From assembly GCA_031261785.1 (NCBI GenBank), contig JAISIZ010000019.1, positions 36,860 to 100,859 on the forward strand: a DNA stretch of 64,000 nucleotides, in the 5' to 3' direction. Under the pieces are notes generated by a model. It was given only the letters and a program-made list of their open reading frames with translations. It made no database searches and was not told the origin of the DNA. Origin of the DNA: Mediterranea sp. (in: CFB group bacteria). GTDB lineage: Bacteria; Bacteroidota; Bacteroidia; Bacteroidales; Bacteroidaceae. The first letter of the stretch is position 1, and every line of letters starts with the position of its first letter. Shown here in pieces: positions 54,657-60,035 of this stretch. Made by a program: the position numbers and the translations under genes.

Positions 54657-54819
54657 ATCAGGTCTGTTGTTTCCGTTATAAATTACTCTGTATATGAAGA
54701 ATAAACGGCCGGTGGAGGGGTAATGTTCCAATTATTCCACCTTATTCGCCAGATAATGCACGTTTCTCCGGAAAAATATGCGTTCCTTTGCCTGCGTAAA
54801 CCAAAGAAAGACAGAGATG

Positions 54820-56004
54820 ATGAAGCGATTGTTGCTGTTCGTGTGCGCGACGGGTTGGCTCGCCCCGGTAGCCCTCCTCTCGCAACCCGCCGGGGAAGAG
54901 ATCCCCTGGCCTTCGGCCGAGAAAGGATACGAGATCAGGCTCGGGATGCCGCTCTTTCTCGACGAGTTGAAGAAAGAGCTGACCTATCCGCTGGCCTGGG
55001 GCAACGCGCCCGAGACGGATTTCGCGGCCTGGCGGGACAAGGCGCGCGCCGCCGTTTTCGACGCCATGCTGGCGCCCCCTCCCCGCGCCGCAGGATACGA
55101 CATCCGCGTCACTGGCGAGGAGCGGCGCGACGGCTACCTGGCCCGTAAGCTCAGGTTCAACCTCAGCGCCTACTCGCGCGTGGAGGCCTACGTCCTCATC
55201 CCCGACGGCGAAGGGCCGTTCCCGGCCGTGACGCTCCTGCACGACCATGGCGGACACTACACCATCGGCAAGGAGAAGATGGTTCGTCCGTTCGGCGTCC
55301 CCGCCGAGGTGCTTGCCGATGCCGACGGCTGGGCCAAGCAGTGCTATGGCGGACAATACGTGGGCGACTACCTGGCCCGCCAAGGCTACGTGGTGATTGC
55401 CACCGACGCCCTGTTCTGGGGCGACCGCGGCCGCGAGGAAGGCAACCAACCCAAGGACGGGCGCCACCTGGCCGACGTGGCGGGCAGTTTCTACATGCTG
55501 GGGCGCAGCCTGAGCGGCTACATGAGCTACGAAGACATGTACGTGGCCGAGTTCCTGTCCACCCTCCCCTTCGTCGACCCCGCGCGCATAGGTTGCATGG
55601 GCTTCTCGATGGGCGCGTACCGGGCATGGATGCTCGCCGCCCTCACCGACCGCGTGAAGGCCGGCGCGGCCGTCTGCTGGATGGTCACCACCCATTCGCA
55701 GCTGTCGTGGCAGCATGGGCGCGAGCATGGCGGCTTCGTCAACCAGCTTCCCGGCATCCGCCGTTACCTCGACTATCCGCACATCGCCTCCATCGCCGCC
55801 CCCAAAGCCATGTTCTTCCTCAATGGCGAGCGCGACAAGCTCTTCGCCCCCGACGGCGTGCGCGACGCGTTCGCCACGATGCGCCGGGCGTGGGAGAGCC
55901 AGTCGGCCAGCGACCGCCTGCGCGCCGAGCTGTGGGACATGCCCCACGACTGCGGCGTCAAGGTACAGGCGGCCGTGCTGGAGTTTCTGAGGAAGTGGCT
56001 GTGA
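54820..56004 (+). CDS. Alpha/beta hydrolase (dienelactone hydrolase / acetyl-xylan esterase-like), secreted
   Basis: Signal peptide; LLHDHGGHY; GFSMGAYRAW nucleophile elbow. Confidence 0.82.
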   Translation: MKRLLLFVCATGWLAPVALLSQPAGEEIPWPSAEKGYEIRLGMPLFLDELKKELTYPLAWGNAPETDFAAWRDKARAAVFDAMLAPPPRAAGYDIRVTGEERRDGYLARKLRFNLSAYSRVEAYVLIPDGEGPFPAVTLLHDHGGHYTIGKEKMVRPFGVPAEVLADADGWAKQCYGGQYVGDYLARQGYVVIATDALFWGDRGREEGNQPKDGRHLADVAGSFYMLGRSLSGYMSYEDMYVAEFLSTLPFVDPARIGCMGFSMGAYRAWMLAALTDRVKAGAAVCWMVTTHSQLSWQHGREHGGFVNQLPGIRRYLDYPHIASIAAPKAMFFLNGERDKLFAPDGVRDAFATMRRAWESQSASDRLRAELWDMPHDCGVKVQAAVLEFLRKWL

Positions 56005-58360
56005 CTTTGCTTTTCTCGATGTGTTCAAAGCGAACATACGGTGGATTCCCAATCACTACATCGAAGCCACCTTTATACTCTTCCCGAAAAGCGTAATCGT
56101 AATCGCAGGTCATATCGGAAATCACCGCAGCAAGGGGATTCATCCCCTTGCTCCTCCCGCACCCGCCCCCGCACCCGCACCCGCACAATTCGCCCGATTT
56201 ATTTTTGTTTAAACGATTATTGTCGATGTCGGCGTTATCTGTTGGATTCGCAAGGGGATGAATCCCCTTGCTGTGGTCCATACCATGTTTGACGCGGTTG
56301 TTTCGGATGTATTCGATGGCGTTTTGCAAATGTTCATCGGACCTTATCTCTATGCAACCATATTTCTGCGTCCAAAGTGAAATGGAGCGTTCGCCCTCGT
56401 TCTTGACAAGGGGATTCATCCCCTTGACCTGGTGGTACGCACGAGAGGAACGACCTTTTATCTTTTTTACAATGTCCACAATCTCTTCCTCCTCGCACAC
56501 CAACAAAAGATGTAGGTGGTCACGACAGATATTGTAAGCCAGCACGTTCAGCTTGTCCTCTTTGACAATGTCGGCAATCGTTTGAGTGATAATGAGTTCG
56601 TCTTCTCCGCTCAATGGATGAACTTGAGGTTCGGGCAGCGTCCCGTTAAAGCGTTTCTCTCGAACCTTATGCTTTATCATTCGTTGGGAAGTGCGACTAT
56701 CGTGTATAGCTGTCACAATGTGGAATGCTTTCTTGTTTTTGGGCTTGAAGACCAGAGGAAACTCTTTATGCCAATCGAATGCCTTGTCGCCGGCAATTAG
56801 AGAAATTCCGCATTTGATGTTATTATTGAGCGAATTGAGCTTACGATGCGGTTGTGCGGTGCGAAGCCAAAGGGTAAGTTTGGCTATTTCCACACTTTCT
56901 TCATTGAGACCTACTCCATAGAGGTTATTTTCCAGAATCGTATTCTCTATATGGGGGAACACGATGCTTGAATCGAAGATCTTGGTGTTTAGCTCGTCGA
57001 TATAATGATGTTCTTTCATCAGGAAGTCGAGTGCCGCATTCAAGAAAACGCCACTGCCGCAAGCGGGGTCGCATATCGTTAGGGATAATAGCCATTCTCT
57101 ATATGTATTGAGAATGTCGAGCAGGTGTTGCTTTTGCTTCTTTGTTCGGTCCTTGTCAATGAAGAAGTCGGTGTCTATAAGATTGAGTTTGGCCTTCTTG
57201 TCCGCACAGAGTTTGCCTAAGGTGTTTTCTATGATATGTGTGGGGATATGGCGCAAGGGGGGAAAAAGGCGGTCTTTTTGGGGGGTGGAGGTGGAGATGG
57301 TGGTGGCGGTGGTTTTTGGCAAGGGGATGAATCCCCTTGCTGTTTGCGCGGTTATCTTTTCTATTTCTTTTAAATTGTTTTCGAGTATATGCTCCAAGAT
57401 GTTTATATTGACTTCTGTATCGTAATTGTACGAAGAGAGTTTCAGAATATTGTCTTTTAAGATATGGTCACTGAAGAGCAGGCTATCCAGTACGTCATCT
57501 GTTTGGAATAGTCCACCATTATAACCAAAGATATCTTCTTTCTTTCCTTTATGCCCTATATCTATATAATGGAAGTATAGGGCTAAACGGCTGTACAAAG
57601 GTTGATACTTATGGAGTGGATCGGCATTGCGCTCTTCCCATTGTTCAATGATGCGCTGCATGGAGTTTGGTGGGAGTAGTCCCTTGTCTTCGGCGAAGAA
57701 TGCGAAGAGCAATCGGTCGAGTGCTTTCTGGGTTTTGCGGAAAAGGAGTAATTTGTCAACCGTTGGGTTATTTTTCGTAAGGTCTTCAAACAAAGCTCGC
57801 TTGAACGCGGAGTAGTCTTTATATAATTGTTTGGTGATATGTTCCTCTGTACGGGTTGACTCGGCTTTCAAGCGTTTGGGTAAGTCGATGGAAAGATTAT
57901 CGTAAGCCAGACAGAGCCACATCGTGGCGAAATCGTCTTCCGATAAATTGAATAGGTGGAACTCCTCGTAGTCAATGGAATTGTCTATGTAAAAGCGCAG
58001 CTTCTCAAAATTGGAGGTAATGACGTAGGGAGTGTTCAAGTTGTTATTCTTATAGCCGAACGCCTGAGCTTCGATCTGCTTCAAGTCGGTGATTTTATGG
58101 TCTTTTAGCTCAATTACGGCTTTCACCGCTCCATCAACGAGAATCGCGCCATCCGCCTTTTGGGCATCCGTTACATGCTTTCTCTCGGTTATCAGATTGT
58201 AGTTTGGAGAGGGATTGAGTGTATAGCCAAGCACTTTCACGAAGAGTTCCCGTAGGAAGGCCTCTTGAAACTGTTCCTCTTTGCCGTCGCGGATGTTCGT
58301 TTGGATCGCAGGGTCAAGAAAATAGGCGGCATAAGTCTGGTAGGCGGCGTGTATCTTCAT
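55958..58360 (-). CDS. Eco57I-like type IIG restriction-modification methylase with embedded HUH/Y1 RAYT-like transposase domain, truncated after NPPY
   Basis: MTase motif I DPACGSGVFLNAALDF and motif IV GGFDVVIGNPPYVRFEHIE, separated by a RAYT-like segment with RDHLHLLLV (HxH) and AIEYIRNNRVKHG; the ORF ends 27 aa after NPPY in antisense of the neighbouring hydrolase. Confidence 0.82.
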   Translation of the reverse strand: MKIHAAYQTYAAYFLDPAIQTNIRDGKEEQFQEAFLRELFVKVLGYTLNPSPNYNLITERKHVTDAQKADGAILVDGAVKAVIELKDHKITDLKQIEAQAFGYKNNNLNTPYVITSNFEKLRFYIDNSIDYEEFHLFNLSEDDFATMWLCLAYDNLSIDLPKRLKAESTRTEEHITKQLYKDYSAFKRALFEDLTKNNPTVDKLLLFRKTQKALDRLLFAFFAEDKGLLPPNSMQRIIEQWEERNADPLHKYQPLYSRLALYFHYIDIGHKGKKEDIFGYNGGLFQTDDVLDSLLFSDHILKDNILKLSSYNYDTEVNINILEHILENNLKEIEKITAQTARGFIPLPKTTATTISTSTPQKDRLFPPLRHIPTHIIENTLGKLCADKKAKLNLIDTDFFIDKDRTKKQKQHLLDILNTYREWLLSLTICDPACGSGVFLNAALDFLMKEHHYIDELNTKIFDSSIVFPHIENTILENNLYGVGLNEESVEIAKLTLWLRTAQPHRKLNSLNNNIKCGISLIAGDKAFDWHKEFPLVFKPKNKKAFHIVTAIHDSRTSQRMIKHKVREKRFNGTLPEPQVHPLSGEDELIITQTIADIVKEDKLNVLAYNICRDHLHLLLVCEEEEIVDIVKKIKGRSSRAYHQVKGMNPLVKNEGERSISLWTQKYGCIEIRSDEHLQNAIEYIRNNRVKHGMDHSKGIHPLANPTDNADIDNNRLNKNKSGELCGCGCGGGCGRSKGMNPLAAVISDMTCDYDYAFREEYKGGFDVVIGNPPYVRFEHIEKSKVTATSSETPARPPVP
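56131..56150 (+). repeat. REP-like palindrome copy 1 CAAGGGGATTCATCCCCTTG
   Basis: Exact; translated as KGMNPL on the minus strand. Confidence 0.95.
56160..56186. repeat. Hexanucleotide CGCACC-type tandem repeat in coding sequence
   Basis: cacccgcccccgcacccgcacccgcac, encoding GCGCGGGCG. Confidence 0.8.
56251..56270 (-). repeat. REP-like palindrome copy 2 CAAGGGGATGAATCCCCTTG
   Basis: Exact; translated as KGIHPL. Confidence 0.95.
56407..56426 (+). repeat. REP-like palindrome copy 3 CAAGGGGATTCATCCCCTTG
   Basis: Exact; translated as KGMNPL, inside the RAYT-like domain. Confidence 0.95.
57320..57339 (-). repeat. REP-like palindrome copy 4 CAAGGGGATGAATCCCCTTG
   Basis: Exact; translated in a different frame as RGFIPL. 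Confidence 0.95.
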
Positions 58361-58511
58361 GGTACAGGCAGCTGTTTGTCTTTTTAGGATGTTATGTTGG
58401 AATAAGGGCATCTGCTATATATTGGAAGACGACAAGGAAAAATTCCGCGTGAATAAGCGCGAATGGCGCGGATTCCTTCCGTTGGGAATCCGCGCCATCT
58501 CTGTCGCTGGC

Positions 58512-59378
58512 TTAGGCAAGCGGGTCGGGTAGTTCATCCTCGCCGCCGCCGGTCGCGCCGCCGGTGGGTCCTCCGGTGGTGCCGCCGTCGCCAGGCGTAG
58601 GTGTCGGGGCGACGGGATCGGGGATTTCCTCGCCGCCGGTGCCGCCGGTGCCGTTGGCGGGATCCGTGTCCGGGGTCTTTTCTTTCGCGTCGGCCGGTTG
58701 CTTCCGCTGGTAGTCGATCAAGCCGTTCATGCCGTCGATGCACGGGTTGTATTCGGTGGTTCGCTCCACGACCACGAGGGCGTTGATGCGCTCCACCACC
58801 GCCTTATAGGCATCGTCCACCTCCTTGCGGGCCGCCTTGGCCGCGCCGGGCAGCTTTTCGCTCTTCTCGTCGTTACGCTTGTAGATGGCCTTGCGCAAGG
58901 TGTCGTTGCTGCCGCGCATGATTTCGACCAGCGAGCCGAGGTTGAGTTCCTCCACCTCGGCCTTGTACTTGCTTTCCAGCTCTTTGAGCAACTTCGTCAT
59001 CAGTCCCGTTTGCTTGTAGAAAGGCGCACGGACGTCGATGTTGTAGTCCTTCAGAGCTTGCCAAAGTCGTTGCCCGGCCGATCTCATCTTCTCCTCCGGG
59101 ATTTTCACGAATGTCTTCACCGCGTTGCGGAACAAGGTGTAAGCGTTGTCGCGCACCGAGTCGGCTTCCTTGATCTCGTCGGTCAGGAAGCTCTTCCTCG
59201 AGAGCGCCAACAATCTCTCCTCTTCCTTGAAGGCTTTCTCGTAGGCCTTCAGTTCGTCGGCGACTTTCGACTTCACTTTCGCGTCGCCGTTCAGACGCTC
59301 CAGCATTTCGTAATGAAAAGCGTAGTGCGTTCCGTTACTCAGCTTCGGTAAGCTGATGGGTTTGATCTTTTTCATCAT
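58512..59378 (-). CDS. DUF6261 family protein
   Basis: 288 aa; helical, KPISLPKLSNGTHYAFHYEMLERLN, Gly/Pro/Thr-rich tail. Confidence 0.75.
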   Translation of the reverse strand: MMKKIKPISLPKLSNGTHYAFHYEMLERLNGDAKVKSKVADELKAYEKAFKEEERLLALSRKSFLTDEIKEADSVRDNAYTLFRNAVKTFVKIPEEKMRSAGQRLWQALKDYNIDVRAPFYKQTGLMTKLLKELESKYKAEVEELNLGSLVEIMRGSNDTLRKAIYKRNDEKSEKLPGAAKAARKEVDDAYKAVVERINALVVVERTTEYNPCIDGMNGLIDYQRKQPADAKEKTPDTDPANGTGGTGGEEIPDPVAPTPTPGDGGTTGGPTGGATGGGEDELPDPLA

Positions 59379-59481: not shown

Positions 59482-60035
59482 TTCTTCGCGAGAAGAACGG
59501 CTGACCAAAAAGTTTCGGCGAAATTTCCGCGAGGAAATCGGGCGAAAAAAAATGTTTGGCCCTGTTTCCGCTGAGAAATTATGCCCTGCAACATGTTTTG
59601 GTCAAATTTCCTCCAGGAAATGTCATGAAACATTTTGTTCACGCAGATTTCTTCTGAGAAATTATGCCCTGCAACATGTTTTGCCCAAATTTCCGCCAGG
59701 AAATTATGCCCTGCAACATTTTATCGCAAATTTCCGCGAGGAAATCAGGCGAAAAAAAATGTTTCATGACATTTCCGCTGAGAAACCGGCCCAAAAACTT
59801 TTTTTCGCCACTTCGACCGCGAGGAAATCATTCCAAAAAAATTTTTTGGCCACCTCGACGCGGGGAAATCGGCCCTGAAAAATTGCTCGGCACCGTTTCC
59901 GCGAGGAAATCACAGCAATAAAATGTTCTCATCACGTTTCCCCGCAGAGACAATTCCCCAAAAAGTTCCTCACTGCCATTCCCTGCGGAAACAGCCTTTC
60001 AAAACTTCCCGAAGCTTGTCACCCCGAAGAAACAC
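59482..60035. repeat. Tandem array of about 14 palindrome-centred units, about 41-bp period
   Basis: Core ATTTCCGCGAGGAAAT-type palindromes near 59482, 59523, 59563, 59604, 59646, 59687, 59728, 59770, 59811, 59852, 59894, 59935, 59977 and 60017. Confidence 0.92.

Follow-up and report, generated by a model that had tools for sequence, protein, structure and literature searches.

An in-frame, RAYT-like HUH cassette with a history of its own inside type IIG restriction genes of the Bacteroidota

How does a transposase-like domain come to lie in the middle of a restriction enzyme, in frame, and does it arrive there once or many times? The question is raised by a single gene in a stretch of 64,000 nucleotides from Mediterranea sp. 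(assembly GCA_031261785.1, contig JAISIZ010000019.1, positions 36,860 to 100,859), which we call the window; its genome is G000 (3.77 Mb searched), and other genomes and loci carry G and L labels. The gene is of the type IIG restriction-modification kind, and between its methylase motifs I and IV it holds a single-tyrosine (Y1) HUH domain resembling those of RAYTs, the tyrosine transposases associated with repetitive extragenic palindromes (REPs). A preliminary description of the window had noticed this domain and taken it for an evolved insertion at a structurally tolerated point; the open reading frame is where it placed it, and every motif quoted there (ADGAILVDGAVKAVIELKDHK, DPACGSGVFLNAALDF, RDHLHLLLV, AIEYIRNNRVKHG and GGFDVVIGNPPYVRF) is present.

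We argue that the domain is probably a mobile cassette, one that does not splice, that brings REP-like palindromes of its own and that colonises type IIG genes of the Bacteroidota. To judge by the genes compared here, the insertion is in frame and at a single site, has uninterrupted orthologues, is under purifying selection with its catalytic residues invariant, follows a phylogeny independent of its host and goes with in-frame palindromes that match it.

One site in many genes, and a separate history

When a profile of the insert was searched against 393 genomes of the same order and a sample of the phylum, it matched in 33 of the 393 and in 5 more genomes of the phylum sample, mostly in open frames of about 1000-1350 residues. 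Full-length fused relatives are available from about 30 other Bacteroidota genomes, which bears out the earlier guess that other Bacteroidales hold similar fusions. Their domains run in the order HSDR_N, MmeI_hel, first part of Eco57I, Y1_Tnp, second part of Eco57I, TaqI_C, which is the order of the MmeI and Eco57I type IIG enzymes except that Eco57I is split by the cassette; they score above 1000 bits against the PADLOC type IIG model and combine nuclease, helical spacer, gamma-type N6-methylase and specificity domain in a single chain, as a type IIG enzyme should.

In all 36 fused genes analysed, the cassette occupies one identical site, between ...FPxVF and GGFDVVIGNPPY..., where it adds about 170-360 residues and divides the Eco57I domain right before motif IV; its tail before GGFD is usually constant, at 26 residues. 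Uninterrupted orthologues exist, many of them with a single residue at the site and a few with a coiled-coil-like sequence of about 75 residues instead of the cassette, and one unfused allele (L160, of genome G328) shares 67% of its amino acids with the window gene over the part upstream of the site. Together, these observations uphold the proposal that an in-frame insertion evolved between motifs I and IV, at a place where it is tolerated.

Does the cassette still do anything? All fused copies retain the DHxH and YIxxN motifs. Over 34 aligned cassettes the mean column identity is 36%, and the invariant positions include the HUH residues (D76, H77 and H79), a tryptophan, the tyrosine (Y146) and the N..KH of its helix. 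The ratio of nonsynonymous to synonymous substitution (dN/dS) is 0.06-0.26 in 10 pairs, and such purifying selection argues for retained activity, short of proving catalysis.

The cassette also has a life outside restriction genes, in four stand-alone genes at loci unrelated to them: L103, which lies between thyA and folA (neighbours named by sequence); L100, which starts MSLFQ, like a type IIG N-terminus; L104, which lacks the tyrosine helix; and the distant L092. The first three nest among fused cassettes in the cassette tree, and therefore the module is able to move out of type IIG genes or into them. Viral contigs, a phage collection and the PLSDB plasmids held no detectable relative of the cassette, and so give no evidence of carriage by phages or plasmids.

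The histories of cassette and host can be compared directly. On a methylase tree from which the insert was left out, genes with and without the cassette are intermingled, and its presence or absence requires 10 changes, at least 8 of them forced by well-supported branches. The cassette tree differs from the methylase tree: in approximately unbiased (AU) tests on 29 complete genes, the N-half tree was rejected for the cassette (4e-115) and the cassette tree for the N-half (1e-7), as were all other crossings, each at p<=1e-7. Pairwise identities of the cassette correlate at 0.13-0.17 with those of the host N-half segments, which correlate among themselves at 0.48-0.78. In two pairs of otherwise distant genes, the cassette, recently shared, is the part most alike, with a synonymous divergence (dS) of 0.42 against 1.57 in the adjoining methylase segment (L078 and L083) and 0.59 against 1.82 (L085 and L086); nucleotide identity in both pairs falls sharply right after GNPPYV. 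On the evidence of these sequences, the phylogeny of the cassette is independent of the host gene, and the cassette has moved between such genes many times.

The preliminary description had offered three functions for the insert: borrowing the expression of its host, riding as an intein-style passenger, or lending the methylase a means of recognising palindromes. The passenger is the best supported of these because the insert has its own phylogeny, if the word intein is not taken strictly, since no splicing is implied; for palindrome recognition in the service of the methylase, we found no direct support.

Palindromes and the cassette

If the cassette is related to RAYTs, where are its palindromes? 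Counting stem palindromes with arms of at least 9, we found 67 in the 36 fused genes and 4 in 24 unfused ones; 33/36 fused genes and 3/24 unfused genes have at least one (p=4e-10), and those in fused genes are in frame. They recur at a few places, namely the nuclease beta-turn, the linker before motif X, the interval between the HUH and tyrosine motifs, the stretch after the tyrosine and the C-terminal coil. The window gene is a case in point: a perfect palindrome of 20 bp, CAAGGGGATKMATCCCCTTG, occurs there in four copies (chance expectation 0.02), and these are the only copies in the whole of G000.

The centre of the palindrome varies among genes and is common to the copies within one gene. 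Palindromes in the host part of a gene match those in the cassette of that same gene (0.881, against 0.665 permuted; p=0.0005), and palindrome similarity tracks cassette identity (0.30), not host identity (0.03), these two correlations being given without a permutation p-value. Across the 393 genomes, the CAAGGGG...CCCCTTG form and the cassette occur together with an odds ratio of 27.6 (p=1e-14), a test that is only indicative because it takes genomes as independent and covers that one flavour; some of its palindrome-positive genomes scored as having no cassette contain type IIG genes cut at contig ends.

Palindromes are found outside fused genes as well, in other methylases, PD-(D/E)XK proteins, SpoIIE-type sensors, sorting tails and intergenic DNA. 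Those in other methylases fall twice in the loop directly before motif IV; L126 and L127 (G373) and L136 (G076) hold such cassette-free palindromes just before motif IV of other methylase families, at a place matching that of the type IIG cassette. In G232, the same palindrome recurs in frame in two paralogous frames at L139, where it separates the D from the ExK of a PD-(D/E)XK-like protein at the very beta-turn used in type IIG nuclease domains, and at L141 two proteins have in-frame palindromes in their C-terminal secretion-sorting tails. Several paralogous SpoIIE-type sensors of G321 (L129-L131) have them in frame right before the phosphatase domain. G087 stands apart from almost all other genomes in matching the control pattern, which is the palindrome pattern reversed, at 34 places on each strand; these matches are probably an unrelated repeat family of that genome.

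The decayed copy in the window

The frame of the window gene starts with an ATG at 58360 (an alternative ATG lies at 58411) and its stop codon ends at 55958. The PADLOC REase_MTase_IIG model matches residues 2-539 (E=1.7e-184), and in Pfam an Eco57I match (E=5.8e-23) is split by Y1_Tnp at residues 583-688 (E=1.5e-12, above the curated cut-off), with weak matches to the MmeI-type N-terminal domain (MmeI_N), to HSDR_N and to the spacer domain. Defined against unfused orthologues, the cassette begins directly after FPLVF and ends directly before GGFDVVIGNPPY; the Y1/HUH insert of the preliminary description is present, at about 225 residues rather than 190. As a structural check on it, an AlphaFold2 single-sequence model proved unusable (mean pLDDT, the predicted local distance difference score, 37.5), and profile matches to solved IS200/IS605 TnpA structures (E=1.9e-6) stand in for it. 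The features are collected in Table 1.

Table 1. Features of the type IIG gene and its cassette, in window positions
Feature	Position	Strand	Basis or remark
Type IIG restriction-modification gene, truncated and degenerate, with in-frame HUH cassette	55961-58360	minus	800 aa, without C-terminal half
Nuclease-like D...ExK region (ADGAILVDGAVKAVIELKDHK)	58094-58156	minus	Sequence; weak MmeI_N and HSDR_N; HSDR_N_2 in full-length relatives
Palindrome 1	57320-57339	plus	Linker before methylase motif X; codes RGFIPL; position also used in other fused genes
Methylase motif I (DPACGSGVFLNAALDF)	57023-57070	minus	Sequence; Eco57I and MmeI_Mtase matches
HUH/Y1 RAYT-like cassette, about 225 aa, in frame	56072-56746	minus	Y1_Tnp E=1.5e-12; REP_Tyr_transpos E=1.6e-15, under its cut-off
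HUH motif DHLH	56510-56521	minus	D, H, H invariant across 34 aligned cassettes
Palindrome 2	56407-56426	plus	In cassette, between HUH and Tyr motifs; codes KGMNPL
Catalytic-tyrosine helix YIRNNRVKH	56285-56311	minus	Y146, I147, N150, K153, H154 invariant across 34 aligned cassettes
Palindrome 3	56251-56270	plus	Directly after Tyr helix; codes KGIHPL
Palindrome 4	56131-56150	plus	Cassette tail; codes KGMNPL
Methylase motif IV (GGFDVVIGNPPYVRF)	56027-56071	minus	Sequence; host-gene homology stops after it; compared with unfused allele L160
Truncation junction	55958-56012	minus	Frame enters 3' end of convergent alpha/beta-hydrolase gene

What the preliminary description missed is the loss of the methylase half after NPPY and the decay of the methylase motifs. 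The frame stops 55-70 bases past NPPYVRF, having run into the 3' end of an alpha/beta-hydrolase gene (54778-56004, plus strand) that is unrelated to the methylase; the copy is for this reason a broken gene. The guanine-plus-cytosine (GC) content drops from 0.67 to 0.44-0.47 across the junction, the type IIG gene forming an island of 43-47% GC amid 60-67%. Compared with L160, motif X has gone from FYTP to FPPL and DINEES has become GLNEES, with 5 residues missing before the site, so that with motifs X and II altered and the C-half missing the window holds no complete, potentially active type IIG chain. A search of G000 for the lost C-half, using a remote C-terminal query roughly joined from two pieces, came up empty, which is weak evidence. 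Despite this methylase decay, the HUH and tyrosine motifs of the window cassette are intact. The window copy is, as we read it, a decayed carrier that has lost its methylase half and kept its cassette, and it is therefore to the intact relatives that one should turn for the biology.

Upstream of the type IIG frame, on the same strand, it is adjoined by a DUF6261 gene (58512-59378; Pfam E=1.1e-40), and upstream of that gene lie degenerate tandem repeats of 42/83 bp (GGAAATT...CCCTGCAACATG; 59565-59884).

What kind of element is it?

Each of the known systems that come to mind fits in part. The best curated family for the window insert is REP_Tyr_transpos (1.6e-15), ahead of IS200 (2.6e-8), at 57.3 bits against a cut-off of 80; for all 34 cassettes it is again the best curated match (E<=0.001). 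With RAYTs (TnpA-REP), and especially with their subclass 2.4 (PMC6006769), the cassette shares the HUH and single-tyrosine core (D76, H77, H79 and Y146), lineage-specific cognate short palindromes (33/36 against 3/24, the flavour following the cassette) and a low copy number. Unlike a RAYT, it is embedded in another enzyme rather than being a free gene; its motifs are DHxH and YIxNNR in place of NH[IFV]H and YIxNNP; and its palindromes are concentrated in the host gene and start with CAAGGGG, or variants such as CAATGG and GACGGG, without the GT[AG]G guide at the foot of a REP. Atypical REPs have also been described for RAYT subclass 2.6, RAYT genes of subclass 2.4 in Cyanobacteria and Bacteroidetes are already known to carry an in-frame REP between the HUH and tyrosine motifs, and unrelated genes, too, have been reported with REPs in their loops (PMC6006769). 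Because of the score under the cut-off, the missing GT[AG]G foot and the embedding, we file the cassette as RAYT-like and not as a RAYT proper.

The nearest solved structures by profile are the IS200/IS605 transposases ISDra2 TnpA and ISHp608 TnpA (E about 2e-6 and 2e-4), and HUH/Y1 chemistry would be expected. The cassette differs from IS200/IS605 elements in lying inside a host protein, with no left-end and right-end hairpins to bracket it and no TnpB, and in matching their NCBIfam model less well than REP_Tyr_transpos. We rejected such an element as an identification, since none of the palindromes sits at a cassette edge; they are found within the cassette and at host sites far from it. The cassette resembles inteins and similar homing elements in its fixed and conserved host site, in-frame insertion, phylogeny of its own, nuclease domain and presence/absence polymorphism. 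It departs from them in that its product is expected to stay a single fused protein, its site is a variable loop rather than an active-site motif, and its homing is putative. An intein was rejected because Pfam scans gave no splicing domain and the edges are variable (K/R/Q/S...YKGG), not a Cys/Ser N-edge and an Asn C-edge. The RPE-type repeats of Rickettsia and Wolbachia are protein-coding palindromic elements, in frame within coding sequences at tolerated places; the difference here is that a candidate enzyme shares the gene with the palindromes, whose sequence follows the enzyme.

Searching the open-access literature on RAYT or HUH together with methyltransferase, restriction, Eco57I or type IIG, we found no description of the fusion. 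As far as that literature shows, what is new is an HUH module stably embedded at one type IIG site with its own mobile history.

Two fusions of other kinds turned up beside it. In the 1294-residue frame of L179 (G390:C139:25000-34500), another RAYT class (NHVH) lies in frame in a PLD-nuclease/SNF2-helicase protein, with REP-type peptides TQASSL and RQDAC, and the helicase C-terminus picks up again past the insert. In the 881-residue frame of L182 (G064:C103:11000-17745), an in-frame fusion joins an HsdR-like type I restriction subunit to a RAYT (NHVH, YILNNP), after which the subunit's C-terminus does not return.

How might a mobile cassette of this sort work? It occupies a permissive loop at the junction between a conserved N-half and an exchangeable specificity C-half, and would act there as a single-strand nuclease on its palindromes and multiply them, as is thought for RAYTs. 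Transfer among type IIG genes might go by recombination through the very conserved flanks, possibly stimulated in homing-like fashion by nicks at the palindromes of the recipient; we put forward both of these last steps with less assurance. From the restriction gene the cassette would draw expression and horizontal transport, and it would leave that gene working. A stronger version, that this is a homing element without splicing, whose active HUH nuclease copies itself into this one loop by nicking cognate palindromes of the recipient and recombining through the flanks, stays on as an extra domain and seeds palindromes in frame, is one we offer tentatively; both catalysis and the manner of movement are inferred.

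Several things weigh against a mobile, palindrome-bearing cassette. Genome G328 has 23 palindromes, 9 of them exactly of the window flavour, with an unfused type IIG gene and no Y1 domain detected in the assembly; its cassette may have been lost or may fall in an assembly gap, but the case has no simple fit. Most genomes hold other Y1 proteins, the cassette is not flanked by a pair of palindromes in the manner of IS200/IS605 ends, and most of the sampled genomes are fragmented assemblies. Moreover, unfused genes too recombine their N- and C-halves freely, so that the insertion site is a natural shuffling junction and ordinary restriction-gene recombination could carry the cassette passively.

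That last point leads to the most serious alternative, in which the HUH domain belongs to the working enzyme as an integral part, for instance as a sensor of single-stranded DNA or hairpins or as a second nickase, and is shuffled with other exchangeable modules by ordinary homologous recombination. Invariant catalytic residues, low dN/dS, the position at an exchange junction that unfused genes share and the intactness of the full-length enzymes are all what one would then expect. Yet very close homologues do without the domain or have the coiled-coil-like sequence in its place, the cassette also stands alone, and an association with palindromes is what a RAYT, not a restriction accessory, should show; we consider such an integral part unlikely.

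Distinctly less credible is that the palindromes were spread by stand-alone RAYTs and that the embedded domain is an inert relic, merely another gene hosting REPs. The other Y1 proteins, the palindromes outside restriction genes and the puzzling G328 speak for it; catalytic residues invariant across 34 cassettes and a palindrome flavour that follows the cassette and not the host gene speak against it. So does the window genome, whose only other Y1 protein (L180, G000:C73:1-6000; a stand-alone frame of 214 residues with DHVH and YIRNQPAHH) looks by motif like RAYT subclass 1.2, which is reported to be without REPs (Quentin et al. 2018, PMC6006769), while all 4 palindromes are in the fused gene.

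To a fusion that happened once, long ago, and was then passed down vertically with the restriction gene, some lineages losing it, we give almost no credence: the insertion site is always identical, as it requires, but the changes on the tree, the mutual rejection of cassette and host trees and a cassette dS far under host dS in several pairs rule it out, unless alignment artefacts explain both the dS and the trees. Least plausible of all is an artefact (chance motifs, mis-assembly or a pseudogene meaningless beyond the window), a view that the truncation and degenerate motifs of the window copy invite and that holds for the state of that copy alone, given some 30 more genomes with mostly open frames of full length.

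We return, then, to a mobile cassette, and to what it would mean. RAYTs are usually regarded as free single-copy genes whose benefit is unknown. A RAYT-like domain within a defence enzyme, its catalytic residues kept and its in-frame moves many, would be a mobile element that stays in frame without any need for splicing. Its site, beside motif IV of type IIG enzymes, marks a natural insertion point that may aid engineering. And it offers a concrete system in which to ask why RAYTs persist and, as a second question, how palindromes enter coding sequences in frame.

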